Assembly (NCBI GenBank): GCA_026982335.1 | Contig: JALSHH010000045.1 | Location: 62,001 to 126,000, forward strand | Length of the DNA stretch: 64,000 nt | Source of the DNA: Phycisphaerales bacterium | GTDB lineage: Bacteria; Planctomycetota; Phycisphaerae; Phycisphaerales; UBA1924 | Reading direction: 5' to 3' | Shown here: piece after piece, positions 47,947-62,890 of the stretch | Numbering within the stretch: position 1 is the stretch's first letter | Layout: every line of letters begins with the position of its first letter | Notes under the pieces: generated by a model | Database searches by the model: none | What the model saw: only the letters and a program-made list of their open reading frames with translations | Told to the model about the DNA's origin: nothing | Made by a program: the position numbers and the translations under genes

Positions 47947-48107
47947 TAAACCGACGAATCGAGGGTGCATATTCACAAATAATTCTGTTTCTTTGCACTG
48001 TTCAGTGCTAGACTTAGATGCCTCGCCATCCGGCGTTGCAGTCGACGAAGAAGATGCCCGACTCTCTCTCGATATTGACACGACTCACGGGCATTTGGAA
48101 GACAGCA

Positions 48108-48485
48108 ATGCTGAACCTGTATGTAGGGAACCTCCCGTACTCGATGAACGACCAAGAACTCAACGACCTCTTCTCCCAGATTGGTGATGTCCAGTCTGCA
48201 AGGGTGATGAGCGATCGCGAAACCGGGCGTTCGCGCGGATTTGGGTTCGTCGAAATGGCCGACGATGACGCCGGACACGAGGCAATCGAAAAACTTAATG
48301 GACAAGACTGCGATGGACGCGCACTTGTGGTCAACGAAGCACGCCCGCGTGAAGAGCGCCCACGCAGAAGCGGCGGATTTGGTGGCGGCGGCGGCCGTGG
48401 TGGTTATGGCGGCGGCGGTGGCGGTCGTAGCAGCGGCGGCCACGGCGGTGGTGGTAATGGCGGCGGCCGCAGCGGTGGCTGGTAA
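48108..48485 (+). CDS. Glycine-rich RRM RNA-binding protein
   Basis: 125 aa from the ATG at 48108 (GGAAGA upstream); a longer open frame is probably not used. A single RRM with RNP2 LYVGNL and RNP1 RGFGFVEM, followed by an Arg-rich linker and a C-terminal Gly-rich tail (GGGGRGGYGGGGG repeats). Such proteins in cyanobacteria and planctomycetes act as RNA chaperones, often cold-induced. Monocistronic, with a terminator 41 bp after the stop. Confidence 0.93.
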   Translation: MLNLYVGNLPYSMNDQELNDLFSQIGDVQSARVMSDRETGRSRGFGFVEMADDDAGHEAIEKLNGQDCDGRALVVNEARPREERPRRSGGFGGGGGRGGYGGGGGGRSSGGHGGGGNGGGRSGGW

Positions 48486-50833: not shown

Positions 50834-52242
50834 AAAAATGCCTTTTGTGAAAGGTCAGAGTCTGAAACCATTGGCAGGCGTGACTGACGGCCAACAACCC
50901 AACCGCCAAACACCGAAATCACTAATAACCCAGCAGAAAAACCAACCATAGGAAACCGCCCCCCCCCCTGAGTACCCACAAAAAGATCAAGCTCCGGTGG
51001 ACGCGTCAGCGGAAATGCGTCGACAAAAATTGGCTCCGGACTCAAATCCGGAAATGCCCGCGCAGTCAGTTCAACCGCTTGTTGAGCGGGACTATGAAGA
51101 AAAATCCGAAGATTAGGCTCTCGCGCAAGCAAACTTCGGAACAAACTCCGAGGCGCGTGAGGGAATTCGCCAATACCATCCCCGTCCCGGTCAAATCCAG
51201 AATAGCTCGACCAAAAATTTCCCACACCGTCTGCAGAGAACTCGTTGAGCAACAGTTGTCCACGACCATGAACCGTCACTTGCTCTTCGTTCTCTACAAA
51301 GGCATTGCGTGAAACAATGTTGTCGTGTGTAATCGGTGTCGCTAACATGCCGATTTCATTAAAAGCAATCTTGTTCTCCACAATAAGACCATACGAGTCG
51401 ACCGATGAAGGTGAATTGTCCACATAAATCCCGACACGATTGGCGAGTAGAGCGTTGTGCTCAATCGTAATTGCATCACAATCCTTAAGTCCAATTCCGT
51501 ACCCACTCGTCCCACGGTTATTGACTATTGAATTTTTGATGAGGTGAATCTCATTGGAATACATCAAATAAACGCCAACCGAGTTGGCAACGAGCTCGTT
51601 GTCCTCAAGCGTTGTGCCATGGGAGTACATAAAGTGCAATCCATACCGGCTGTTCGTTACATGATTCCGTGCGATACTTAGGTTCTCGGAATACCAAAAA
51701 ACCATATCTCGAACGGCATCAACTTTGTTATCTACAATGATACAGTCATCACTCCACCAGAGCCGAACCCCATCACCTCGTCGCCCCAAACCCAACTCCT
51801 TGCCTTGAATTACATTGTAACGGATTATGGATCCAGGCGCAGGGCGCAAATCAATCCCAAAATATACATCTTCAATGCGATTGTGCTCAATAATGACAGG
51901 GCCGGCAAAAGCACGAATTCCGGCAGGCTCTTGATCTACCGTTGAACCCGAGCCCCGGATCGTCAGACCGCGAAGGGTGATGTCCCCGACACCCAACTCG
52001 ACGACTGTCCCTTTGCCAAGCCCATCAATCGTTACGCCCCCTTGCCCATCCAGTACAATCGATTTTTCAATACGCAAATTGCCGCCATAAACACCTGGCG
52101 GCACAATGATCGTTGAACCTGACTCGGCCGATTCGATCAAACGAACGATTTCATCGATAGACTTGGATGACTCCTGCGCCTGGGCATCCCAAAGTATACC
52201 AAAAGAAACACATAAGGCCGCAATGACTTGGGTGATATTCAC
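50830..52242 (-). CDS. nosD: NosD-like periplasmic beta-helix protein
   Basis: 470 aa from a GTG at 52242 that overlaps the preceding stop (GTGA); an ATG 93 bp upstream lies inside the neighbouring gene. Signal peptide (VIAALCVSFGILWDAQAQ), then right-handed beta-helix repeats of the CASH/NosD type: GIDLRPAPGSIIRYNVIQGKELG, GDGVRLWWSDDCIIVDNKVDAVRD and GLHFMYSHGTTLEDNELVANSVGVYLMYS. A C-terminal hydrophobic helix is present (~445-465). It works with NosFY in CuZ-site assembly outside the membrane. Confidence 0.92.
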   Translation of the reverse strand: MNITQVIAALCVSFGILWDAQAQESSKSIDEIVRLIESAESGSTIIVPPGVYGGNLRIEKSIVLDGQGGVTIDGLGKGTVVELGVGDITLRGLTIRGSGSTVDQEPAGIRAFAGPVIIEHNRIEDVYFGIDLRPAPGSIIRYNVIQGKELGLGRRGDGVRLWWSDDCIIVDNKVDAVRDMVFWYSENLSIARNHVTNSRYGLHFMYSHGTTLEDNELVANSVGVYLMYSNEIHLIKNSIVNNRGTSGYGIGLKDCDAITIEHNALLANRVGIYVDNSPSSVDSYGLIVENKIAFNEIGMLATPITHDNIVSRNAFVENEEQVTVHGRGQLLLNEFSADGVGNFWSSYSGFDRDGDGIGEFPHAPRSLFRSLLAREPNLRIFLHSPAQQAVELTARAFPDLSPEPIFVDAFPLTRPPELDLFVGTQGGGRFPMVGFSAGLLVISVFGGWVVGRQSRLPMVSDSDLSQKAFL

Positions 52243-52916
52243 GGCTGCTCTTCTGCTTTCTTCGCTGCATTCTGAGCCTTGACTAAAGGCGCATATGCCC
52301 GCCAGTGGAAAAACAATGCCACGAGTATCACACATGATGAAATCGTTGCCAAAATCAATCCAAGACCAGGCATCGCAACAGTCTTGAATTGCCCAACCAT
52401 ACCAGTACCCAAGACCGGAGGAACAAACGGCTCGATTGAATTTGACAATGGTGCATCAGGATCAAGATTCTGGCCGAAATAACTCATCCAAAGGTGCAAG
52501 TCGATCAAGAAAACTGCAGGAAATAACAAAACCGGAAGAACCAGTAAGACCGTCCATCGACTATGAATCCAACTCGCAAGCTCGAGAAGAACCACAAATC
52601 CAATAAGAAGATAAACACCAATGGATCGTTCAATTTGAGCAGCCTCTTCAAGAGGGCGCATTCCAATATAGTGATTCAAACTATCAATCTCTGCAACATC
52701 GCCTGCAAGATGCGTAACATATGCGATCAAATGCAAATTTTCAGGATATTGCGGAGCCACAAGTTCCATATGCCAAAATGGCACAAACAATGAAACCAAT
52801 AAGAGCACACGAGCAATCAACAGCAAAAAGCCAGGCGCCCCGTAAGTTAAACTGTTCTTCTCAAGCTCCGACTGATCAACACGCGGGCCAATCACTTTTT
52901 CGAGAAATGAGGACAT
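52239..52916 (-). CDS. Membrane protein of the nos cluster (NosB-like)
   Basis: 225 aa from the ATG at 52916 with AGGAG upstream. Four or five TM helices: FLLLIARVLLLVSLFVPFW, IGVYLLIGFVVLLELASWI, VLLVLPVLLFPAVFLIDLHLWMSYF and LGLILATISSCVILVALFF. HYIGMRPLEEAAQIERS lies between TM1 and TM2. Placed between nosZ and nosD, as NosB is in the clade II cluster of Wolinella. The NosB name rests on that position and size; its function is unknown even in characterised clusters. Confidence 0.7.
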   Translation of the reverse strand: MSSFLEKVIGPRVDQSELEKNSLTYGAPGFLLLIARVLLLVSLFVPFWHMELVAPQYPENLHLIAYVTHLAGDVAEIDSLNHYIGMRPLEEAAQIERSIGVYLLIGFVVLLELASWIHSRWTVLLVLPVLLFPAVFLIDLHLWMSYFGQNLDPDAPLSNSIEPFVPPVLGTGMVGQFKTVAMPGLGLILATISSCVILVALFFHWRAYAPLVKAQNAAKKAEEQP

Positions 52917-53008
52917 AGAGCGTATCTCCTGAATAGATGTATCCTGCTTGAGTGTTGAGTTCTTAAAAACGCCACACGCACTTTCATACGCATGGCACAA
53001 AAAGAGTA

Positions 53009-55000
53009 TTAATCGCGGGGCTCAACCATAAGATAACCCATCATCTCTAAGTGAAGTGCCGAGCAGAATTCGGTACAATAGAATGGGAAGGTTCCTGCCC
53101 TGTCTGCAACAAACTCAACAGTAGCGGTTTCGCCAGGCTCAAGGCTCAGTGTGATATTATACACCGGAATCGAGAATCCATGAGTCGCATCAATTGCACG
53201 CTCGGTGTTGGTGATCCGCCATTTGACCGTATCACCTTGTTTCACCGTCACATGCTCAGGAGTAAAGTGACTCCGCATCGCGGTCATAAAGACTTCGACT
53301 TCACGCTCACCCTTGCGCTCTACACGCTCCATCTTGGGGCGCGGGGCCCAAGGATCAACCGATTGTGTGTGCGGATCCCAACCAATTTCTGGATAAACCC
53401 ACCACGGGTTCAGCTTGTCCGCCTTGATGATCTGAGCATAGTGAGGCTCACCAATACCCAAAGGCATATCGTAAATTACAGGCATATGGGTGCCTTGCTG
53501 GGAAATGTCCAAAAGCTGGAAGTTCTGAGGAAGCAATGGCCCCACACCAATAAAACGATCGACCGCCCACTTGTTGTATGCAACAAGATATTTGCCATCG
53601 GGATCAATCGTATCGCCTTCGGCTACGCCAAGGTGACCAATATTATAGTGGACAGGGGTTTTGGTAACAAGTGTCCAGTCAGGTTCTGGGTTGAGACTCC
53701 CATACGATCCACCCAAGGTCCAACGGGCAACTGCGGAATCAAGGAAAAGTGAAGTGTACGCATAACCATCGGGACCGAATTGCGTATGCAGTGGGCCAAG
53801 TCCTACCTCAACTTGTGCTTCAACAACCGTGTCAAAATCAAGCACAGGAACTCCAAACTCATCCGTGCCCGAGAAAGTCTTGTCGGCAATCGCCTTCTTG
53901 ATCTTCGCAAAGGAATAAATAGTTGTATGTGGATCAAGTTTGCCAGAGACCACGATAAAATCACCCTTAGGAGCAACATCAACCCCGTGCGGGCTTCGTG
54001 GCTCTGGAGTCAGGTGGAGAAGCCCTTCATCGATCGCTGTCTGAAGAGGAATCACCTCCATCCCCTTAATTGTTACGGTCTTACCCGCCTGGAAAACCTT
54101 CTCGGCCTTTTTCCAATTGATGATGTGCAAATAATCCGTCGCATTCATGCTCACGCCGGCCTCAAATGGCGGATTCTTCTGACCTTCAACACCGATGCCT
54201 CCAGTGGCAAGTTCAGTATTGATCGAGTTCAGGAAGAAATATCCATCACTCTCAAGCTTGCCGCAATCGGCAATGTCCTGCCAGTATGGTGGGAGTTCGA
54301 TTGAGAATGATCGATCAACATCAATTCGTCCTTTTTTGCGATCAAACTTCCACATAGTAACCGCACCACGGAAATCTTCTTTGTAATCGCTCATCGGTGC
54401 ATAATCCGCACCCCAAGGCACATTGTACTGGGCCGTCTCAAATACATAATCGGTATTGGGCGTCACGAAAGCCCCCCCGTGATCATTAATAAACAACGGA
54501 TTCTTGACAATTTGCTTTGTCTCAAAATCACGAAGATCAATCACGGCCATACGCGCATTTGACTTATCGTTGACAAAAAGCCATTCCCCGTCATAGTCCC
54601 CATTGGTTTCCGACAATGCTGGGTGATGGGTATCGCCCCAACGATTCTCTTTTCCCTGAACATTACCTGCATCGAGAATTTCATTGCCCGCACCGTATCC
54701 ATACCCCTGCCAAGGCTCGGGGGTAAATACCGCAATGGTTTTGAGCAGCCGCATTGAGGGAACCCCGATAACAAAAACTTGCCCCGAGTGCCCGCCCGAA
54801 GACATGATGACATATTCGTCTTTCATGCCAGTCGGAGTGTATGTCATTGCTGCAGCAATGAGATCCTGAGTGCTCAAACCTCGTTCTTTTGCAACCTTCT
54901 GAACATCGCTGATGGACTGCGCCATAACCGATGACGCAGTTCCAATTGCAACGACCCCCGCTACGAGCATAAGCTTGGAACCAAATCGCGTGAGTGCCAT
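53009..55000 (-). CDS. nosZ: Nitrous oxide reductase (Sec-exported type)
   Basis: 663 aa from the ATG at 55000, with AAGGAAG upstream. The signal peptide LMLVAGVVAIGTASSVMAQ lacks a twin arginine, the mark of clade II enzymes. A seven-bladed propeller holds the CuZ histidines (GDTHHPAL, FINDHGGAFV, SPHGVDVAP, GPLHTQFG, IGHLGVAEGD, GEPHYAQII). The C-terminal cupredoxin has the CuA ligands in ATHGFSI and FPFYCTEFCSALHLEMMGYL. Reduces N2O to N2 in the periplasm. First gene of nosZ-(B)-D-F-Y-L, with a terminator between it and the cytochrome gene upstream. Confidence 0.97.
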   Translation of the reverse strand: MALTRFGSKLMLVAGVVAIGTASSVMAQSISDVQKVAKERGLSTQDLIAAAMTYTPTGMKDEYVIMSSGGHSGQVFVIGVPSMRLLKTIAVFTPEPWQGYGYGAGNEILDAGNVQGKENRWGDTHHPALSETNGDYDGEWLFVNDKSNARMAVIDLRDFETKQIVKNPLFINDHGGAFVTPNTDYVFETAQYNVPWGADYAPMSDYKEDFRGAVTMWKFDRKKGRIDVDRSFSIELPPYWQDIADCGKLESDGYFFLNSINTELATGGIGVEGQKNPPFEAGVSMNATDYLHIINWKKAEKVFQAGKTVTIKGMEVIPLQTAIDEGLLHLTPEPRSPHGVDVAPKGDFIVVSGKLDPHTTIYSFAKIKKAIADKTFSGTDEFGVPVLDFDTVVEAQVEVGLGPLHTQFGPDGYAYTSLFLDSAVARWTLGGSYGSLNPEPDWTLVTKTPVHYNIGHLGVAEGDTIDPDGKYLVAYNKWAVDRFIGVGPLLPQNFQLLDISQQGTHMPVIYDMPLGIGEPHYAQIIKADKLNPWWVYPEIGWDPHTQSVDPWAPRPKMERVERKGEREVEVFMTAMRSHFTPEHVTVKQGDTVKWRITNTERAIDATHGFSIPVYNITLSLEPGETATVEFVADRAGTFPFYCTEFCSALHLEMMGYLMVEPRD

Positions 55001-55050
55001 TTTTCTTCCTTTCCTGCTGTTGTTATCTGTAAATCCTAAATTAGTCTTCA

Positions 55051-55074
55051 AAAAACGCTGCGAACCCGCAGCGC
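55051..55074 (-). terminator. Intrinsic terminator between the dihaem cytochrome and nosZ
   Basis: On the minus strand, CGCTGCG-GGTT-CGCAGCG is followed by TTTTTT, 11 bp after the cytochrome stop. It implies that nosZ has its own promoter or receives only read-through transcription. Confidence 0.88.
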
Positions 55075-55084
55075 CATACAGTGC

Positions 55085-55906
55085 TCAATCTGCCGTATCG
55101 ATTGAACGGATATAAGTAATGATGTCTCGAAGTTCATCATCGGTAATCGCTGGATTCCCTCCTTTAGGGGGCATATCGACCCCGGTCGTATTGGCTGCGT
55201 CCCAGACAGGACGCCCCATCTTGATCATCGTCAGCAACTCTTTATCCGACGCATTCTTCACAAACTGGCTCGTTGTAAACGGCTTGCCCAACCCTTCCAT
55301 GCCTTCCCCATTGGGCCCATGGCAAGTTGAGCAGGCAGAAACAAAAAGATCACGCCCAACAATCTCCACCTCCCCCTCCTCGGGTTCAGCATTACCAGTG
55401 ACAATCCATGCCTCCATCGAAGTGCGCGGAGCTGACGGATCCTGAAGCGTGCGGATATAGGCGATCACATCATGAATCTGTTCATCGCTGATCCCTTGGG
55501 CACCACGAGCAGGCATCGGCATCCCAGTGGTATTGGCAGGATCATCGGGCATACGACCATTGGCAATGTTGTTGAACAACTCAGCATCGTCACTGTCGAG
55601 CACATAGCTTGTGTTCACCAAGGGTTTGCCCAGCCCGACAATCCCTTTGCCATCGGGGCCATGGCAAACCTTGCAGGTATTCATATACACCGTCTCACCA
55701 GGAGATATCGGCTCAACAATCGCATCATGGGCCACCACCGAGGCTGCCTCTGTTTTCTCTGAGACAGGAGGACCAACGATGATCACTGCCATGATGATGA
55801 GCGGAAGCGTAATCATAAAGAGCACATTCACGCTGATCGCTTTCCACCGTTCCGGGTCTGTTCCGGGCTGGTCCCCTGATGCATCATGTCCTGGCTGATT
55901 TGTCAT
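55085..55906 (-). CDS. Membrane-anchored dihaem cytochrome c
   Basis: 273 aa. One N-terminal TM (VNVLFMITLPLIIMAVIIVG), then two mono-haem cytochrome c domains in tandem: CKVCHGPDGKGI with GMPMPARGAQGISDEQIHDVIAYIRTL, and CSTCHGPNGEGM with VDMPPKGGNPAITDDELRDIITYIRSI (axial Met in each). The similar domains point to an internal duplication. GGAG precedes the ATG. Located just before nosZ, it is the likely electron donor (the place NosC1/C2 have in other clusters). Confidence 0.9.
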   Translation of the reverse strand: MTNQPGHDASGDQPGTDPERWKAISVNVLFMITLPLIIMAVIIVGPPVSEKTEAASVVAHDAIVEPISPGETVYMNTCKVCHGPDGKGIVGLGKPLVNTSYVLDSDDAELFNNIANGRMPDDPANTTGMPMPARGAQGISDEQIHDVIAYIRTLQDPSAPRTSMEAWIVTGNAEPEEGEVEIVGRDLFVSACSTCHGPNGEGMEGLGKPFTTSQFVKNASDKELLTMIKMGRPVWDAANTTGVDMPPKGGNPAITDDELRDIITYIRSIDTAD

Positions 55907-56183: not shown

Positions 56184-57689
56184 ATGATGATCCGGCAAGA
56201 AATCGCGCCATGCCAATCTCCTGAACCTATTGTGTACGCGATGCAACCCAAGTCCGACTCGATCACACGCCGGCTTACCAGCCCTACCGACCCCATCACC
56301 CACGCCGGTGAAATTGCCCTCCGATATACCTTGGGCGAAACCCAAACTCCAGTCGCGGCCTACCAACTCCCGAACGAGCTTGAGTCTCAACTCGACCTAA
56401 CAATCTGCAAAGAAGGCGAGTCCACTGACCAAGTTATGCGGGCATTGGAAGAGCTTGCCAACGCAACGCCTCGGAGCACAAGTACCCGATTCTGCAATCA
56501 ACTTTTTAGTGGATCCGATCCAATCGCGACCGCGGCCGACATGCTTGTGCCCGTCATCAACACCTCGCTCTACACATTTAAAGCGGCAGGACCGATGGCC
56601 ATGATCGAGCGGATCATCATCGCCAAAATGGCAGGCTTGTTGGGATTCAATGGATCTCCCAACAAACCCGAAGGCATTTTTACCCCAGGGGGATCCATCT
56701 CCAACCTTGTCGCCATGCTCATCGCACGAAATGAAACCTGCCCCACCCTCCGCAACGAAGGCTCACAGGGCAAGCGAATCATCTGCTATGCCTCAGCCGA
56801 CGCCCACTATTCCATCATCAAAAACGCAGGCATCTTGGGGATGGGACGCCAGAATGTTCGGCAAATCCCAACCGACAACACTGGTGCGATGAATCTCAGT
56901 ATCCTCCATCAAACAGTACACGACGATCTGGATGCTGGGCATCTTCCAAGCATGATCATCGCCACTGCGGGCACCACCGTCCGCGGGGCCTTTGATTCGA
57001 TCGATCAAATCATCCCAATCGCGCGGGAGTTCGGGGTTTGGGTGCATGTCGATGCGTGTTTCGGCGGAGCAGCTTCCCTGAGCCCAACACATCGCCACTT
57101 GCTCAATGGCGTCGAGCTTGCCGACTCCGTCGCATGGAACCCCCACAAGGTCATGGGCGTGCCACTTTCGGCTGCAACACTCATCACCCGAAAATCTGGC
57201 TACCTCTCCAAGAACTTTGATGAAACCGCGGACTATCTTTTTCAAGGCGATGACGATGCCCTAAATCCAGGCACCCGCTCGATCCAATGCGGCCGACGCA
57301 ATGATGCCCTTAAGGTCTGGGCCGCCTGGAAACACCACGGCGATATCGGATATCGAGATCGCATCGACCATCTGATGAGCATCGCCCAATACGCGGCGTC
57401 GGGCATCAAAGCCCACGACGCACTGATACTCTCTTGCAAACCAACCTATGTCAATGTGTGTTTCGAGGTTGTCGGCAAGTCGAGCCGGGCAATCTGCGAT
57501 CTGCTGCGTGAACGCAACGAGTTGCTCGTGGGGCATGCCGAGGTTGACGGGCGACGCGTGATCCGCATCCCGTTCGTCAATGGCGCGATCACCACCGACG
57601 ATGCTGATGAGATGCTCGAACTTATCCTCAACGCGGCCCAGACACTCCCCGCAGGTGACAACGCAATCACATCGGCACCGAACTGCTAA
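56184..57689 (+). CDS. PLP-dependent group II decarboxylase
   Basis: 501 aa (a shorter start at 56241 is possible; no ribosome-binding site supports either). Family blocks: GIFTPGGSISNLVAMLIARN, SADAHYSIIKNAGILGMGRQNVRQIP, ATAGTTVRGAFDSI, WVHVDACFGGAA and the PLP lysine in SVAWNPHKVMGVPL. It belongs with glutamate, aspartate 1- and cysteine-sulfinate decarboxylases; the substrate is not deducible. The last 23 bp overlap the 3' end of the NorB-like gene on the other strand. Confidence 0.88.
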   Translation: MMIRQEIAPCQSPEPIVYAMQPKSDSITRRLTSPTDPITHAGEIALRYTLGETQTPVAAYQLPNELESQLDLTICKEGESTDQVMRALEELANATPRSTSTRFCNQLFSGSDPIATAADMLVPVINTSLYTFKAAGPMAMIERIIIAKMAGLLGFNGSPNKPEGIFTPGGSISNLVAMLIARNETCPTLRNEGSQGKRIICYASADAHYSIIKNAGILGMGRQNVRQIPTDNTGAMNLSILHQTVHDDLDAGHLPSMIIATAGTTVRGAFDSIDQIIPIAREFGVWVHVDACFGGAASLSPTHRHLLNGVELADSVAWNPHKVMGVPLSAATLITRKSGYLSKNFDETADYLFQGDDDALNPGTRSIQCGRRNDALKVWAAWKHHGDIGYRDRIDHLMSIAQYAASGIKAHDALILSCKPTYVNVCFEVVGKSSRAICDLLRERNELLVGHAEVDGRRVIRIPFVNGAITTDDADEMLELILNAAQTLPAGDNAITSAPNC

Positions 57690-59109
57690 AAGTGTCTTCC
57701 CGCTCATCGACCCACTGATGACGCGCAAAGAGCAGACCCAGCCAAACATAGAGCAACCGGCCTAAGAAAAATCCTGCAACAACTCCGCACCCGGCAAGAA
57801 TATAGTGATTTGAAGATTCAAGCCACTCGGGCCTGGCAATCCCGTTGTATCGCCGAACCGCAGTCATCACTCCGAAAATCGTCAGCCATCCAATCAACGC
57901 CACCACACCAACATTGAACCCGATGATCCATCGACGGAATCGCCTTGATTTGAGCACCGTCGCACGCTCACCTCGGCGCTCATACATTTCGATAATCATC
58001 CATGAAATCGCGGCAAAGAGTGCCATCGCGTCGATCCCGATCTCCGCACCCATCCCGTGCGCCATCACCACCGTCGTTCCATGAATCAACGCATTGAGTG
58101 GCGGGATGGACATCAGAATCGAAGTCGCCAAGATATATCCCGTCCACCATTTGGTCCAAGCAAGAAAAAGTCTGACCGAACAAACTGGCACAAGACATTT
58201 GCTCTTGACCATTGCTGCAATATCCCAGACCACCCGGGCCAAAATGATGATCTCTGTCATCGAAATCACAAAACTAATCCACTTGACAAGATGATGCTGA
58301 GGAAGGTGGTAAGTATGGTGTCCAAAGTTCGTAAACGAGTTGAGCAACCCCACCCCAAAGAGCGCATAGGCCAAGCGTGAATGCGCATATAACTCACACT
58401 TGGTAATTTTGACGCCAATATACACCAAGCTCCCATAGACCAGCAAATTGAAACTTCCCACAAGAGTGCCGGTCGCCTTCCATTGCAGCCGTATGTCCGT
58501 CAACGGATCGGCGAAGACACTCGAAAGCAGCCAGGCGTGCTGTTCAACAAAAGTATAGAGAAAGAACAACACCCCTACCGCCCACATCGAAACATGCACC
58601 GGGCGATGGAGCAATCCCTTGCCAAGAATCGCAAAGAAGTTCCAAGTAAACAACAGCCAGCCAAGCAGCACCGGAATCGAAAAAATGGGGTGAAATCCCA
58701 TATATTCACGCCCAGAGAAGACGCCAAAGAGCAGTGAACTCAAAATTCCAATTCCCGCAATCGCCCAGAGAATCACCTGAATACGCAGACGCCAGCGTTC
58801 AGCATTGCCCATCGGACCAGCAACATCCTCAAAGTACCGGTGCACCACCGCAACTCCACCGAGGAAGATGAATGCAGCTGCAAATGTCGTATGAATCGGT
58901 CGCAACGAGGCAAACTGAATCCCTAGGTTTTGCATCACCAACGCAACCGTCGGAATGTAGTACAAAACACCCAACAACCCTGCACTGAGCGTAATGCAAA
59001 GTGCCACGATCGAACCACGCATAAAAGTAAGCGTCGCATACCGCCGGGAAGAATCCACTAATCGAAAATCTTCTGCGGCAGCAGCTTGGGTATCATCGTG
59101 CAAATTCAT
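57667..59109 (-). CDS. NorB-like haem-copper oxidase subunit I with altered active-site residues
   Basis: 480 aa, 12 or more TM helices. Landmarks aligned by eye to NorB/CcoN: low-spin haem His73 in LRPIHTTFAAAFIFLGGV; helix VI QWKATGTLVGSFNLLVYG; His264-His265 in NFGHHTYHLPQ (FeB ligands); His351 in HGTTVVMAHGMGAEIG (high-spin haem). But helix VI has Thr213 and Val217 where NorB has the FeB His and the catalytic Glu, and Met353 replaces the second low-spin haem His. Glu189 and His191 (FVEQHAW) are unusual extra polar residues. The NorC-like gene directly upstream overlaps it by ATGA. NO reductase is the nearest description, but a different reaction or an electron-transfer role is possible. 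Confidence 0.75.
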   Translation of the reverse strand: MNLHDDTQAAAAEDFRLVDSSRRYATLTFMRGSIVALCITLSAGLLGVLYYIPTVALVMQNLGIQFASLRPIHTTFAAAFIFLGGVAVVHRYFEDVAGPMGNAERWRLRIQVILWAIAGIGILSSLLFGVFSGREYMGFHPIFSIPVLLGWLLFTWNFFAILGKGLLHRPVHVSMWAVGVLFFLYTFVEQHAWLLSSVFADPLTDIRLQWKATGTLVGSFNLLVYGSLVYIGVKITKCELYAHSRLAYALFGVGLLNSFTNFGHHTYHLPQHHLVKWISFVISMTEIIILARVVWDIAAMVKSKCLVPVCSVRLFLAWTKWWTGYILATSILMSIPPLNALIHGTTVVMAHGMGAEIGIDAMALFAAISWMIIEMYERRGERATVLKSRRFRRWIIGFNVGVVALIGWLTIFGVMTAVRRYNGIARPEWLESSNHYILAGCGVVAGFFLGRLLYVWLGLLFARHQWVDEREDTFSSSVPM

Positions 59110-59840
59110 TCATACTCCCACCACGGCAAAGACCGCCAAAATGGAATCGGGTCCTCATTTACCTGCTCGAGCACACGATCGCGATGCTCAGCGAGGAAGG
59201 TGATGAATGCTTGGACACTTGCTCGTTGGTCGGGCGAGAGTTGAGAAGGAGGCATGAGAGGAGCACGCCCAAACTCAAGCACATAAGCAATCTCCCCGGC
59301 ACTGAGTATCTCGCCTGAGATCGAAAGATCAGGCCCACCAACGGCCGACACCGCATAAAGTGTATGACAGGCCTGGCATGTATTGGTTTGGAAAATCTCA
59401 AATCCCTGTGCAACGCCCACATCACCCGACTCTGCAATCACCGACTCGAGGGCCTTGATTTTCGCACTGGTTCGGCCTTGGCCAATGTTTGGATTCCGCG
59501 CCTGCCCAATCCCCGTCTGATCCATCGCTTCTAAGAACGACCAGAGTGCTTCGACCTCCCCGGAGTCCATCTCGAACGCAGGCATCTGCCCCTGCCCAAG
59601 GGCCAATCTCGCATCGAGCAAGTCCCGATCGAGTCTTGCTGCAGCGTTGGTCAGATCGGGCCCTAGAAAACCACCAAATCCATGAAGTTGATGACAAGCC
59701 TGGCAATTATTCTGCATCCAAAGCTGCCGACCCGCGACCGCCTGCTCATCAAGCAGCACACTGGATTTTCGATCGGTATAGACAAGCCCCGTTTGAAACA
59801 CAAAGCACATCACCAACAAGACCATTACGAGCCCCTTCAT
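59106..59840 (-). CDS. NorC-like membrane-anchored dihaem cytochrome c
   Basis: About 244 aa if it starts at MKGLVMVLLVMCFVFQTGLVY (59840); an ATG at 59915 is also open, and neither has a clear ribosome-binding site. One TM, then domain 1 AGRQLWMQNNCQACHQLHGFGGFLGPDLTNA, strongly NorC-like (NCxxCH-x-x-x-G-x-G-x-x-x-P-(E/D)-L). Domain 2, GFEIFQTNTCQACHTLYAVSAVGGPDLS, adds a second haem that ordinary NorC lacks. The C-terminus ends PFWRSLPWWEYE. It would feed electrons to the NorB-like subunit, to which it is coupled by ATGA. Confidence 0.82.
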   Translation of the reverse strand: MKGLVMVLLVMCFVFQTGLVYTDRKSSVLLDEQAVAGRQLWMQNNCQACHQLHGFGGFLGPDLTNAAARLDRDLLDARLALGQGQMPAFEMDSGEVEALWSFLEAMDQTGIGQARNPNIGQGRTSAKIKALESVIAESGDVGVAQGFEIFQTNTCQACHTLYAVSAVGGPDLSISGEILSAGEIAYVLEFGRAPLMPPSQLSPDQRASVQAFITFLAEHRDRVLEQVNEDPIPFWRSLPWWEYE

Positions 59841-59963
59841 CAGCGGACTACACCGCCCTGGCCAAAGCTTGGTGTTGCAATGCAGAATGGTCTTCACAAA
59901 ACCCATGAATGGCAAGTGTAGCGAGCTCAGAGCAAAATGCAGAGCCTCTCAACAATCATCCCT

Positions 59964-60998
59964 CTACTCAACTTCCCAAGATTCGTTCCCCGTCACCAGT
60001 GCTTGTAAATCAGGATGCCGGCCTTTTTTCTGCGCCTCATCGAGCTGCTGATAGAGTAACTGGTCGTAGGTAGGCTTCGAGGAATCTGCATAAAGAATAC
60101 CCATCGGTTCAGGAAACTCCGGATGTGCCATCTGGGCGTACATATTGGCAAGGAACCGGTCGGTCTCATCATGGACAATGAGATCGGATTCGGTGATCCC
60201 GTTCTCGCCGATAGTCACCACCTTGGGACTCCCACAGTTAAAGATAATCCCCTTGTTCCGATCATTCCCAAAGACCAAAGGCTGGCCGTGCTCGAGTTTG
60301 ACCGTGGTCTCGTACATCGTCTCCCTCTGCGATGCGTAAAACCATGCTTTATGATTGAAGATATTGCAATCCTGATACACCTCAACAAATGAGGTCCCTC
60401 GATGGGACATCGCCCGTTTGAGAATTGTATCCATCCCTTTCATATCGACATCAAGGCTTCGCGCAATAAAGGTACACCCCGTTGCCACCGCAATTGCTAT
60501 TGGATGAATCGGATAATCAATTGAACCTGCGGGAGATGTGGGCGAAACCTTACCGGCTTCACTTGTCGGTGAGTATTGCCCCTTGGTCAGTCCATAGATT
60601 CTGTTGTTGAGCAACAGAATCGTAAGATCCACATTCCTGCGCATCGTGTGGATTGTGTGATTGCCCCCAATCGAAAATAGGTCGCCATCCCCCGCCACAA
60701 CGCAAACTTCAAGTTCGGGATTGGCGCATTTGACTCCTGTTGCAACCGCCAATCCGCGTCCATGGATCGAGTGCACGCCATAGGTTGCCATGTAGTAGGG
60801 AAACCGTGATGAACACCCGATCCCGGAGACGAAGACAAAGTCCTCTTTCTTTCTGCCCATGCTCGGCAGCGCTTTGCGTACCGCAGAGAGCACCGCGTAG
60901 TCGCCGCACCCCGGGCACCATCGGACATCTTGGTCGGAGGTAAAATCCTTGGCCGAGTAAATGGGGAGATCGGTACTCTTTGTATCTGTCGCGCTCAT
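59964..60998 (-). CDS. korB: 2-oxoacid:ferredoxin oxidoreductase, beta (TPP) subunit
   Basis: 344 aa. RWCPGCGDYAVLSAVRKAL at the start and the TPP-binding block VVAGDGDLFSIGGNHTIHTMRRNVDLTILLLNNRIYGLTKGQYSPTS (GDGD...NN) are those of KorB/VorB-type subunits. It works with the alpha-gamma chain to oxidise a 2-oxoacid (probably 2-oxoglutarate) with CoA, reducing ferredoxin. ATG overlaps the korA stop (ATGA). The NorC-like gene follows about 120 bp downstream. Confidence 0.92.
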   Translation of the reverse strand: MSATDTKSTDLPIYSAKDFTSDQDVRWCPGCGDYAVLSAVRKALPSMGRKKEDFVFVSGIGCSSRFPYYMATYGVHSIHGRGLAVATGVKCANPELEVCVVAGDGDLFSIGGNHTIHTMRRNVDLTILLLNNRIYGLTKGQYSPTSEAGKVSPTSPAGSIDYPIHPIAIAVATGCTFIARSLDVDMKGMDTILKRAMSHRGTSFVEVYQDCNIFNHKAWFYASQRETMYETTVKLEHGQPLVFGNDRNKGIIFNCGSPKVVTIGENGITESDLIVHDETDRFLANMYAQMAHPEFPEPMGILYADSSKPTYDQLLYQQLDEAQKKGRHPDLQALVTGNESWEVE

Positions 60999-62890
60999 TG
61001 TTTCAGCACCTCCGTGATGCGTTCGACCAGCGTATCAACCCGGAAGGGCTGACCTTTGACGATGTTGATCCCGATTGTTTCAATCAAGAACTTCGATCGG
61101 ATCAACATGCTCAGCTGTCCGAGGTTGATCTCTGGGATGACGATCTTCTTGAATGATCGCAAAATTTCCTCGGTATTCGATGGGAAGGGATTGAGGTATT
61201 GCAGGTGAGCCGAGCTGACCGTATGTCCATTGGCCCGAACTTGGTGGACCGCAGTGGTAATTGAGCCATAAGTCCCGCCCCAACCAAGCACGAGCACATC
61301 GCCCGATGAGGGACCATCGACTTGAAGCAACGGGATCGACTGGGCTGCTCGCTCGACTTTCTCTGCTCGCAAACGCACCATCATGTCGTGATTGTCTCCA
61401 TCGTACGACACATTGCCCGTCTCGGCATCCTTCTCCAAACTCCCTACCCGATGCTCGAGTCCGGGTGTGCCTGGGATCGCCCATGGACGGGCGAGGGTTT
61501 CTCGATCGCGGGCATAGGGTAGGAACCCGTTTTCGCCGAAGTCTTCTTCTCTTGGATGCGTGATCTCGATATCAGGGATATCGGCAACATCGGGCACCTT
61601 CCAAGGCTCGGCACCATTGGCGATGTACCCATCAGAAAGGTAGATCACCGGGGTCATGAACTCAACCGCAAGCCGAACCGCCTCGATGGCCATGTTGAAA
61701 CAGTCCGATGGGCTCCGAGGCGCCACGATGATCAACGGGCTCTCGCAATGACGCCCGTACATCGCTTGGAGAAGATCCGCCTGCTCGGTCTTGGTCGGAA
61801 GCCCCGTCGCCGGACCAGCCCTCTGGACATCGACAATAACCAGCGGGAGTTCGAGCATCAATGCCAGCCCCATGGCTTCGCCCTTGAGCGCCATCCCTGG
61901 TCCGGAAGTCCCCGTCACGGCCAAGTCGCCAGCAAAGCTTGCCCCAAGAGCAGTACAAATCGCCGCGATCTCATCCTCTGCCTGAATCGTCTTAATTCCA
62001 AAGCGTTTGAGGTGTGCCAAGCCGTGCATCACACTCGATGCCGGAGTGATTGGGTAGCTCGCGTAAACGATCGATTTATCCGCCTTTTGGGCAGCGGTCA
62101 CCAATCCCAAAACAGTTGCCTCATTGCCACTGATCTGACGATAGGTCCCCTTTTCTTGCTTGGCAGGAGGCACCCGATAGCGCGATGGGAAGACTTCTGC
62201 GGTTTCGCCGAAGTAGTATCCAGCTTCAAGCGCACGAATGTTGATCTTGGCAACTTCGGGCAACCCCTTTTTATGGGCAAACTTCTCGGTCAGATAGGCC
62301 TTGGTCTGTTCGATGGGACGCTCGTAGAGCCAGTAGACAATTCCGAGTGCGAACATGTTTCGGCACCGGTTGATGTCCTTGGCACCCATGCCCGAATCGG
62401 CGAGCGATTCTTTGGTCAGCCGAGACATTGGCACGCGGACCAAGTGATACTTGTTGATGATTTCTTCATCATCGAGCGGGTTGTATCCGTCAATATACCC
62501 ACATTTGGCAAGGTTTCCTTTGGTGAACTCGTCTTCGTTGACGATCACGATCCCACCGGGCTCAACATCACCAATGTTGACCTTGAACCCCGCCGGGTTC
62601 ATCGCGACCATGGCGTTAACACGATCGCCGGGGGTGTAAATATGCGACGAAGAAAAATGAACCTGAAACCCTGAAACACCAAAGGTTGTGCCCTTCGGGG
62701 CTCGGATCTCGGCGGGGAAGTCTGGGAAGGTTGCAAAGTCGTTCCCGAAGAGTGCGGAGGTATCGGCGAACTGCCCGCCAGTGAGTTGCATCCCGTCGCC
62801 AGAGTCGCCACAAAATCGGATGACGACGGAATCAAGTGTCGTTTCGGGTGTCTGGGTATCGGGTGTCTGGGTAGATTGATCGGTCGACAT
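60995..62890 (-). CDS. korA: 2-oxoacid:ferredoxin oxidoreductase, fused gamma-alpha subunit
   Basis: 631 aa. The gamma-like domain comes first (VVIRFCGDSGDGMQLTGGQFADTSALFGNDFATFPDFPAEIRAPKGTTFGVSGFQ, ~23-80). The alpha domain follows (YASYPITPASSVMHGLAHLKRFGIKTIQAEDEIAAI, GLPTKTEQADLLQAMYGRHCESPLIIVAPRSPSDCF). A TPD-TQTPE repeat sits in the extreme N-terminus. This alpha/beta pair (gamma fused) is typical of 2-oxoglutarate-type enzymes without a separate delta ferredoxin subunit. Start of the korA-korB-norC-norB-like gene string. Confidence 0.92.
   Translation of the reverse strand: MSTDQSTQTPDTQTPETTLDSVVIRFCGDSGDGMQLTGGQFADTSALFGNDFATFPDFPAEIRAPKGTTFGVSGFQVHFSSSHIYTPGDRVNAMVAMNPAGFKVNIGDVEPGGIVIVNEDEFTKGNLAKCGYIDGYNPLDDEEIINKYHLVRVPMSRLTKESLADSGMGAKDINRCRNMFALGIVYWLYERPIEQTKAYLTEKFAHKKGLPEVAKINIRALEAGYYFGETAEVFPSRYRVPPAKQEKGTYRQISGNEATVLGLVTAAQKADKSIVYASYPITPASSVMHGLAHLKRFGIKTIQAEDEIAAICTALGASFAGDLAVTGTSGPGMALKGEAMGLALMLELPLVIVDVQRAGPATGLPTKTEQADLLQAMYGRHCESPLIIVAPRSPSDCFNMAIEAVRLAVEFMTPVIYLSDGYIANGAEPWKVPDVADIPDIEITHPREEDFGENGFLPYARDRETLARPWAIPGTPGLEHRVGSLEKDAETGNVSYDGDNHDMMVRLRAEKVERAAQSIPLLQVDGPSSGDVLVLGWGGTYGSITTAVHQVRANGHTVSSAHLQYLNPFPSNTEEILRSFKKIVIPEINLGQLSMLIRSKFLIETIGINIVKGQPFRVDTLVERITEVLKQ

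Follow-up and report, generated by a model that had tools for sequence, protein, structure and literature searches.

Cytochrome c-fed nitric oxide (NO) reductases (cNOR) combine a catalytic haem-copper subunit, NorB, with the cytochrome c NorC. The ligands of the FeB site in NorB are required, and NorQ and NorD, encoded in cNOR operons, are the chaperones that load FeB. We analysed a 64,000-nucleotide stretch of a Phycisphaerales bacterium genome (contig JALSHH010000045.1, positions 62,001 to 126,000), hereafter the window, in which a norB-like gene and an adjoining norC-like gene encode a widespread, apparently uncharacterised relative of NO reductase with several of these ligands missing. 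Non-canonical reductases of the haem-copper oxidase superfamily have been described before: according to the accessible part of PMC8756737 (Table A4), eNOR, sNOR, gNOR, nNOR and bNOR each have one active-site residue altered, sNOR, gNOR and eNOR have a cupredoxin second subunit instead of the haem c one, and the residues listed per family do not bear on the His of helix VI. The accessible parts of PMC10359470 and PMC12569097 use hidden Markov models and the reference set of a NOR-diversity study (doi 10.1073/pnas.2316422121), and this set includes 865 further haem-copper proteins (PMC12569097). The family described here may be among those 865, named or unnamed; no description of it was found in the literature searched, which was in part accessible only as partial text and did not include the NOR-diversity study itself.

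The norB-like open reading frame (ORF) at 57667-59109 of the minus strand translates into a protein of 480 amino acids, and its start overlaps by four bases the stop of an upstream ORF for a c-type cytochrome (59106-59915, minus strand). The latter opens with TTG at 59915; judged against the related locus L018, the NorC-like protein probably starts at the ATG at 59906. A first-pass annotation of this DNA had described a NorB-like protein coupled to a NorC-like one with a second CXXCH motif. The pair is confirmed, and every residue named at the time (H73, E189, H191, T213, V217, H264-H265, H351 and M353) was found in the translation. Residue counts were taken from a pattern-free set of 34 genes obtained by whole-protein search (the window gene, 16 from Planctomycetota and 17 from Gemmatimonadota), since the patterns of our wider scan contain some of the residues at issue. 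One of the 34 is split over two contigs; among the 33 unsplit genes, pairwise identity has a median of 41% and a minimum of about 28%. The features of the pair are as follows.

57667-59109, minus strand: NorB-like catalytic subunit, 480 amino acids, COX1 superfamily (P0001), from the ORF, the Pfam match and the family alignment.
58891-58893, minus strand: codon of His73 in helix II, low-spin haem ligand by homology (34/34).
58543-58545, minus strand: codon of Glu189, invariant, near the end of helix V (34/34).
58468-58473, minus strand: codons of Thr213-Gly214, where by spacing helix VI would carry its FeB/CuB His (no His in 34).
58315-58320, minus strand: codons of His264-His265, retained helix-VII metal ligands (34/34).
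58306-58308, minus strand: codon of His268, invariant, three residues past the His-His pair and absent from six cNOR rows (34/34).
58252-58254, minus strand: codon of Glu286, matching the helix-VIII Glu of cNOR, 21 residues after the second His of the pair (34/34).
58057-58059, minus strand: codon of His351, proximal ligand of haem b3 by homology (34/34).
58051-58053, minus strand: codon of Met353, which turns HxH into HxM and replaces the second low-spin haem His (34/34).
59106-59906, minus strand: NorC-like membrane-anchored cytochrome c with two CXXCH motifs, from the probable ATG (TTG opening at 59915).
59691-59705, minus strand: first CXXCH haem-c motif of the NorC-like subunit.
59364-59378, minus strand: second CXXCH haem-c motif of the NorC-like subunit.

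Residues H73, R134, E135, E189, D205, Q209, W210, G214, N221, H264, H265, H268, E286, H343, H351 and M353 are invariant in all 34 genes, and a larger alignment of 97 rows (89 distinct) agrees, with H73 being His in 96 rows and a gap in one. At a median identity of 41%, this conservation of key residues exceeds chance. The losses are equally uniform. In none of the genes is a helix-VI ligand place filled by His or Glu, and the second helix-X His is absent from all 34; the deficiency first seen in the window gene extends to the family. Position 213 is Thr, Cys, Asn, Tyr, Ser or Ala, 214 is always Gly, 217 is Val, Ile or Thr and 218 is Gly or Ala; lone His residues at 212 (L004) and 216 (L013) fall at neither ligand place. 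The reference rows of a superfamily alignment have His in place of M353, except for the misaligned A-type row A_L150. The family has six invariant His (73, 264, 265, 268, 343 and 351), six cNOR rows have nine. Among these nine, the lost ligands are H186 of helix VI and H328, the second His of helix X; an invariant counterpart is missing for H281 and H308 as well, and H268 is new to the family. The family retains GR from the GRx motif of cNOR, and the Glu three residues further on, invariant in the six cNOR rows, corresponds to position 138, which is Gly in 31 of 35 family rows and Glu in two. The three-His CuB/FeB site and the helix-X HxH, a criterion of the haem-copper superfamily, are lacking in 34/34 genes. 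Such a strictly conserved loss of key metal-binding residues implies that the family probably works differently from NO reductase. A metal site made of Glu189 and His191, as also suggested in the first-pass annotation, fared less well: E189 is invariant, yet H191 is His in 32 of 34 genes and Asn or Gln in the other two, and was rejected as an FeB ligand for this variation. None of the alignments made put His191 at the place of the FeB His, a placement singled out beforehand as telling against a divergent family.

The place of the lost helix-VI ligand was judged by spacing. In the superfamily alignment both the helix-VI His and the helix-X HxH are present in cNOR, qNOR, CcoN, two C-like groups and two A-type oxidases, and both are absent from the NorB-like family. 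Measured back from the His-His pair, cNOR has its helix-VI His at -51, the position of T213; in CcoN and both C-like groups this His stands at -50, the position of G214. An Asp at -9 and a Trp at -4 from this His are invariant in the cNOR (D177, W182, H186) and CcoN (D252, W257, H261) sets. D205 and W210 of the family match this Asp and Trp and therefore favour G214 as the His place and G218 as the Glu place. This refines the earlier claim of a Thr at the His place: the His and Glu places are T213 and V217 by the cNOR spacing, and G214 and G218 by that of CcoN.

The window protein matches PF00115 (COX1) over residues 27-424 (E 7.6e-17; 61.7 bits against a cut-off of 34.8), and 15 of the 17 members of alignment A1 match it at E<=0.001. 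No NCBIfam model matched the window protein at E<=0.01; at the same threshold, a fused cbb3 I/II model is matched by 38 of 62 members and ccoN by nine of the 62. A single-sequence search of PDB chains gave nothing at E<=1. A 17-row profile found cbb3 CcoN chains best (4.3e-10) and cNOR NorB at 4.3e-4, and a 62-row profile found cbb3 chains only (best 4e-5). With hhalign, cNOR (98.5%, E 2.6e-15) is nearer than CcoN (96.4%, E 1.1e-9). The searches therefore disagree on the nearer neighbour, the PDB profiles indicating cbb3 and hhalign cNOR.

In a tree of 55 rows, the family forms one clade (100/99) on a stem of 2.29 changes per column, beside cNOR and qNOR together (100/99). Approximately unbiased (AU) tests reject its grouping with cNOR (p 0.016), with qNOR (p 0.015) and with CcoN (p 8e-6). 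Compared with these three sets, the family is thus a clade of its own outside all of them; eNOR, sNOR, gNOR, nNOR and bNOR are absent from the tree set, as are the misaligned A_L150 and two qNOR rows in which the helix-II part is missing. The view that this is a divergent haem-copper family and not a canonical NO reductase, put forward from the window gene, is borne out by the family-wide residue loss and the separate deep clade.

A family member was found in 17 of 199 Planctomycetota genomes, the window's own included, and in 17 of 150 genomes from the phylum to which L039, a Gemmatimonadetes record, belongs. A GTDB-wide scan of one genome per species gave at least 592 pattern matches, of which at least 556 encode a relative, these being stretches and not necessarily distinct genes. 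By record title, the 80 loci kept comprise 37 from Planctomycetota, 33 from Gemmatimonadota, three from Pseudomonadota, two from Acidobacteriota and five unplaced, and all 80 titles say metagenome-assembled genome (MAG). Eight of the 80 belong to the OFTM series, one of whose genomes, OFTM341, is named in the accessible part of PMC10732223, which also reports that norB is common among Planctomycetota MAGs from the Oslofjord. For Gemmatimonadota, NorBC is reported in at least 9% of 326 genomes in the portion of PMC9426454 available.

The norC-like gene adjoins in 77 of the 80 loci, and in the three loci without it (L051, L054 and L082) the norB-like gene is no more than about 300 bases from the end of a contig; a laxer count finds it in 95 of 96. 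Among 95 NorC-like proteins, 87 have two CXXCH motifs, five have one and three have none, the last eight all being short (54-210 amino acids). It is the first domain that aligns with the NorC proteins of three cNOR operons; the second haem domain is an extra. A NorC-NorB fusion, suggested by long open frames, was dropped because the norC-like gene lies in a different frame; the extensions are probably frame shadows.

Beyond this partner, the 80 loci have no general neighbour, although gene calls are crude in the GC-rich ones. NorQ and NorD had no match in the available flanks of the 80 loci (68 with at least 3 kb downstream), a search confined to these flanks within each genome. The same queries matched in L101, from which they were taken, in the two other alphaproteobacterial cNOR loci (L102 and L103) and in two Planctomycetota cNOR loci out of three. 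L198, the remaining one, gave no match and has its norB near a contig end. In the window, the nos operon starts about 1.8 kb from the norB-like gene (with its cytochrome gene, 55085-55906; nosZ is 2.6 kb away), a decarboxylase gene on the opposite strand sits between the two, and a 2-oxoacid:ferredoxin oxidoreductase lies upstream of the pair.

59964-62890, minus strand: korA-korB, 2-oxoacid:ferredoxin oxidoreductase, located 57 bases upstream of where the norC-like gene probably starts.

The closeness to both, pointed out in the first-pass annotation, is real in the window and local. The nos set adjoins in one of 80 loci (L018, a near relative whose nosZ is 95% identical), with isolated nosF-type ABC matches in five further loci, and korAB adjoins in two of 80. 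A general tie to nos genes was accordingly rejected, and korA-korB is a local neighbour outside the conserved unit. An SSF solute symporter lies near the pair in 16 loci (one a Planctomycetota record, otherwise Gemmatimonadota), a galactokinase-like kinase in 12 (L033, L038, L039, L043, L044, L045, L048, L058, L061, L070, L082 and L088) and a GH109-type protein in 10; within Gemmatimonadota these sugar-related neighbours may reflect shared descent. FNR-type boxes were found upstream in two of 73 loci versus 29 of 3365 control stretches.

Several further observations were made around the locus. The pyridoxal-dependent decarboxylase gene (56184-57689) and the norB-like gene converge and share 23 bases at their 3' ends; a decarboxylase homologue lies directly downstream on the opposite strand also in L018, L026, L028 and L029. 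The nos region (52239-55906) contains a Sec-type NosZ gene preceded by a two-haem cytochrome c gene and followed by a 253-residue protein without a Pfam match at E<=0.01 and then by nosD, F, Y and L; a gene for an RNA-recognition-motif protein with a glycine-rich tail (48018-48485) adjoins the operon end. About 6 kb separate a divergent family member, L176 (G005:C18:1-20000; 31% identical to the window's in alignment A1), from a NosZ-like gene whose score falls short of the cut-off (487 versus 625 bits).

Other COX1 groups were also encountered. Two more groups, of the types FYVHNAV...HHMIHGP and WIHNAVGLW...HHFFYSP, comprise L131, L132 and L172-L175. With ccoN, for which the cut-off is 583 bits, L172-L175 reach 180-231 bits, and those rows of the two groups that entered the tree make up separate clades there. 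Nine of 24 rows labelled qNOR have HN for HH and Gln for the helix-VIII Glu, all of them Planctomycetota loci (L109, L110, L112, L113, L115, L116, L122, L123 and L128). We take this to be the pattern of NO dismutase (NOD), and NOD-like genes may be common in Planctomycetota. In 13 of 25 qNOR-type rows (L114, L117-L121, L124-L127, L129, L130 and L133), MQGL stands ahead of the haem ligands of helix X, where other rows have HGT or a similar motif.

Our preferred interpretation, tentative and held with a confidence just short of even, is that the pair encodes a two-gene, cytochrome c-fed membrane reductase of the haem-copper superfamily with rebuilt sites. Electrons would pass from a periplasmic donor through the c haems to a His/Met haem b, expected to have a higher potential than a bis-His haem, and on to haem b3. 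The invariant candidates for metal ligands are H264, H265, H268, E286 and E189. A second metal, if present, could be held by H264, H265 and E286 as a 2-His-1-carboxylate site, possibly with H268 or E189; alternatively, no second metal would be bound. The distal pocket would be open and lined by G214, G/A218 and N221, and a small molecule would be reduced there, NO being the first candidate by descent and O2 or peroxide the others. The more specific proposal, of a His/Met low-spin haem b plus a b3 site with a 2-His-1-carboxylate partner metal, if any, and a reaction that is neither O2 to water nor NO to N2O, is possible but doubtful.

Several points weigh against this interpretation. The choice of E286 as a ligand is a guess, and the cNOR Glu that matches it is a second-sphere residue. 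The tree program warns of long branches meeting at the junction of the family. Both hhalign against cNOR and one MAFFT run prefer an 8-residue gap in helix VI, which would bring two invariant residues, D205 and Q209, opposite the His and Glu. We rejected this gapped alignment on the shared Asp and Trp and the spacing to the His-His pair, and think that it arises from pairing GSFNLL with GVWELV; it stays as a caveat. Finally, among the genome counts discussed below, Gemmatimonadota nirK above the curated cut-off (1/17 genomes with the family versus 17/133 without, p 0.69) and Planctomycetota nosZ (p 0.24) show no difference, and the association tests ignore descent.

It is rather unlikely that the pair is a non-catalytic electron-transfer or sensor complex, in which there would be no second metal, a helix-VII His would make haem b3 bis-His, and the four haems would pass or store electrons or sense redox state or a gas. 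The loss of the FeB His and Glu, the absence of NorQ and NorD from the flanks and the lack of any general genomic partner besides the norC-like gene would fit such a role. However, E286 and both His of the pair are kept in 34/34 genes, more than a carrier should need, and by homology both haems would lie near one membrane face, which leaves no evident transmembrane path.

A working NO reductase with substitute ligands, serving NO detoxification rather than respiration, also seems improbable. cNOR and qNOR are the nearest groups in the tree, the partner is NorC-like and the helix-VIII Glu is kept. In addition, nosZ is present in the window's genome (91.9% complete), which has only two COX1 genes besides the norB-like one. 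Of these, one exceeds the ccoN cut-off and we take the other for an A-type oxidase, so that no canonical NorB was found among its COX1 genes. On the other hand, residues required in cNOR are absent, the cNOR-invariant Glu after GRx is mostly absent as well, and NorQ and NorD were not seen nearby. Genome content points the same way: nirK above 200 bits occurs in 0/17 Planctomycetota genomes with the family versus 6/182 without, and in Gemmatimonadota nirK at E<=1e-40 is rarer with the family (1/17 versus 45/133, p 0.023). Gemmatimonadota nosZ is likewise rarer with it (1/17 versus 54/133, p 0.006), a count that we set in favour of the preferred interpretation. In Planctomycetota, the family shows no link with nosZ (2/17 versus 9/182, p 0.24, or 1/17 versus 9/182 without the sub-cut-off gene of G005), with nirK above 200 bits or with cNOR (0/17 versus 3/182); qNOR/NOD-like genes are somewhat commoner with it (5/17 versus 23/182, p 0.07). 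Overall, these association counts speak against a routine role in denitrification. Local degeneration, sequencing error or a pseudogene of a normal NorB has nothing in its favour beyond the missing residues and can be dismissed, since the same substitutions recur in 34/34 genes of two phyla, with open frames and a conserved gene pair.

About one in ten genomes of the two phyla as sampled, and some others, carry the gene. Annotation may name it NorB or, given its weak ccoN-type matches, CcoN, though residues for those functions are missing. If the preferred reading of a reductase with rebuilt sites is true, surveys that equate NorB with NO-reducing capacity could be wrong for these phyla, and the family would amount to a natural experiment on which ligands of the binuclear site are indispensable. 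It would also be, to our knowledge, the first family in the haem-copper superfamily whose low-spin haem has His/Met ligation.

Among known systems, cNOR shares with the family the NorC/NorB pair, the GR of the GREY motif, the His-His pair, the helix-VIII Glu, the HGT motif and the proximal His. It differs in that the family lacks the helix-VI His and Glu, retains only His-His of the FeB ligands, has HxM for HxH, an extra H268 and a partner mostly with two haems, and lies outside the cNOR clade. CcoN is similar in the D...QW motif before the helix-VI ligand and in the LRPxHT motif, and gives the best PDB profile matches, whereas the family lacks the CuB His of helix VI and has HxM, and its grouping with CcoN is rejected. 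With eNOR, sNOR, gNOR, nNOR and bNOR, the likeness is one of description, as given in the accessible part of PMC8756737, and not of sequence. The qNOR and NOD-like proteins belong to the same sister group, and the NOD-like ones also alter the FeB site (HN for HH and Gln for Glu). In contrast to the family, however, these rows keep the helix-VI His and the HxH and alter the His-His pair, while the family does the reverse.

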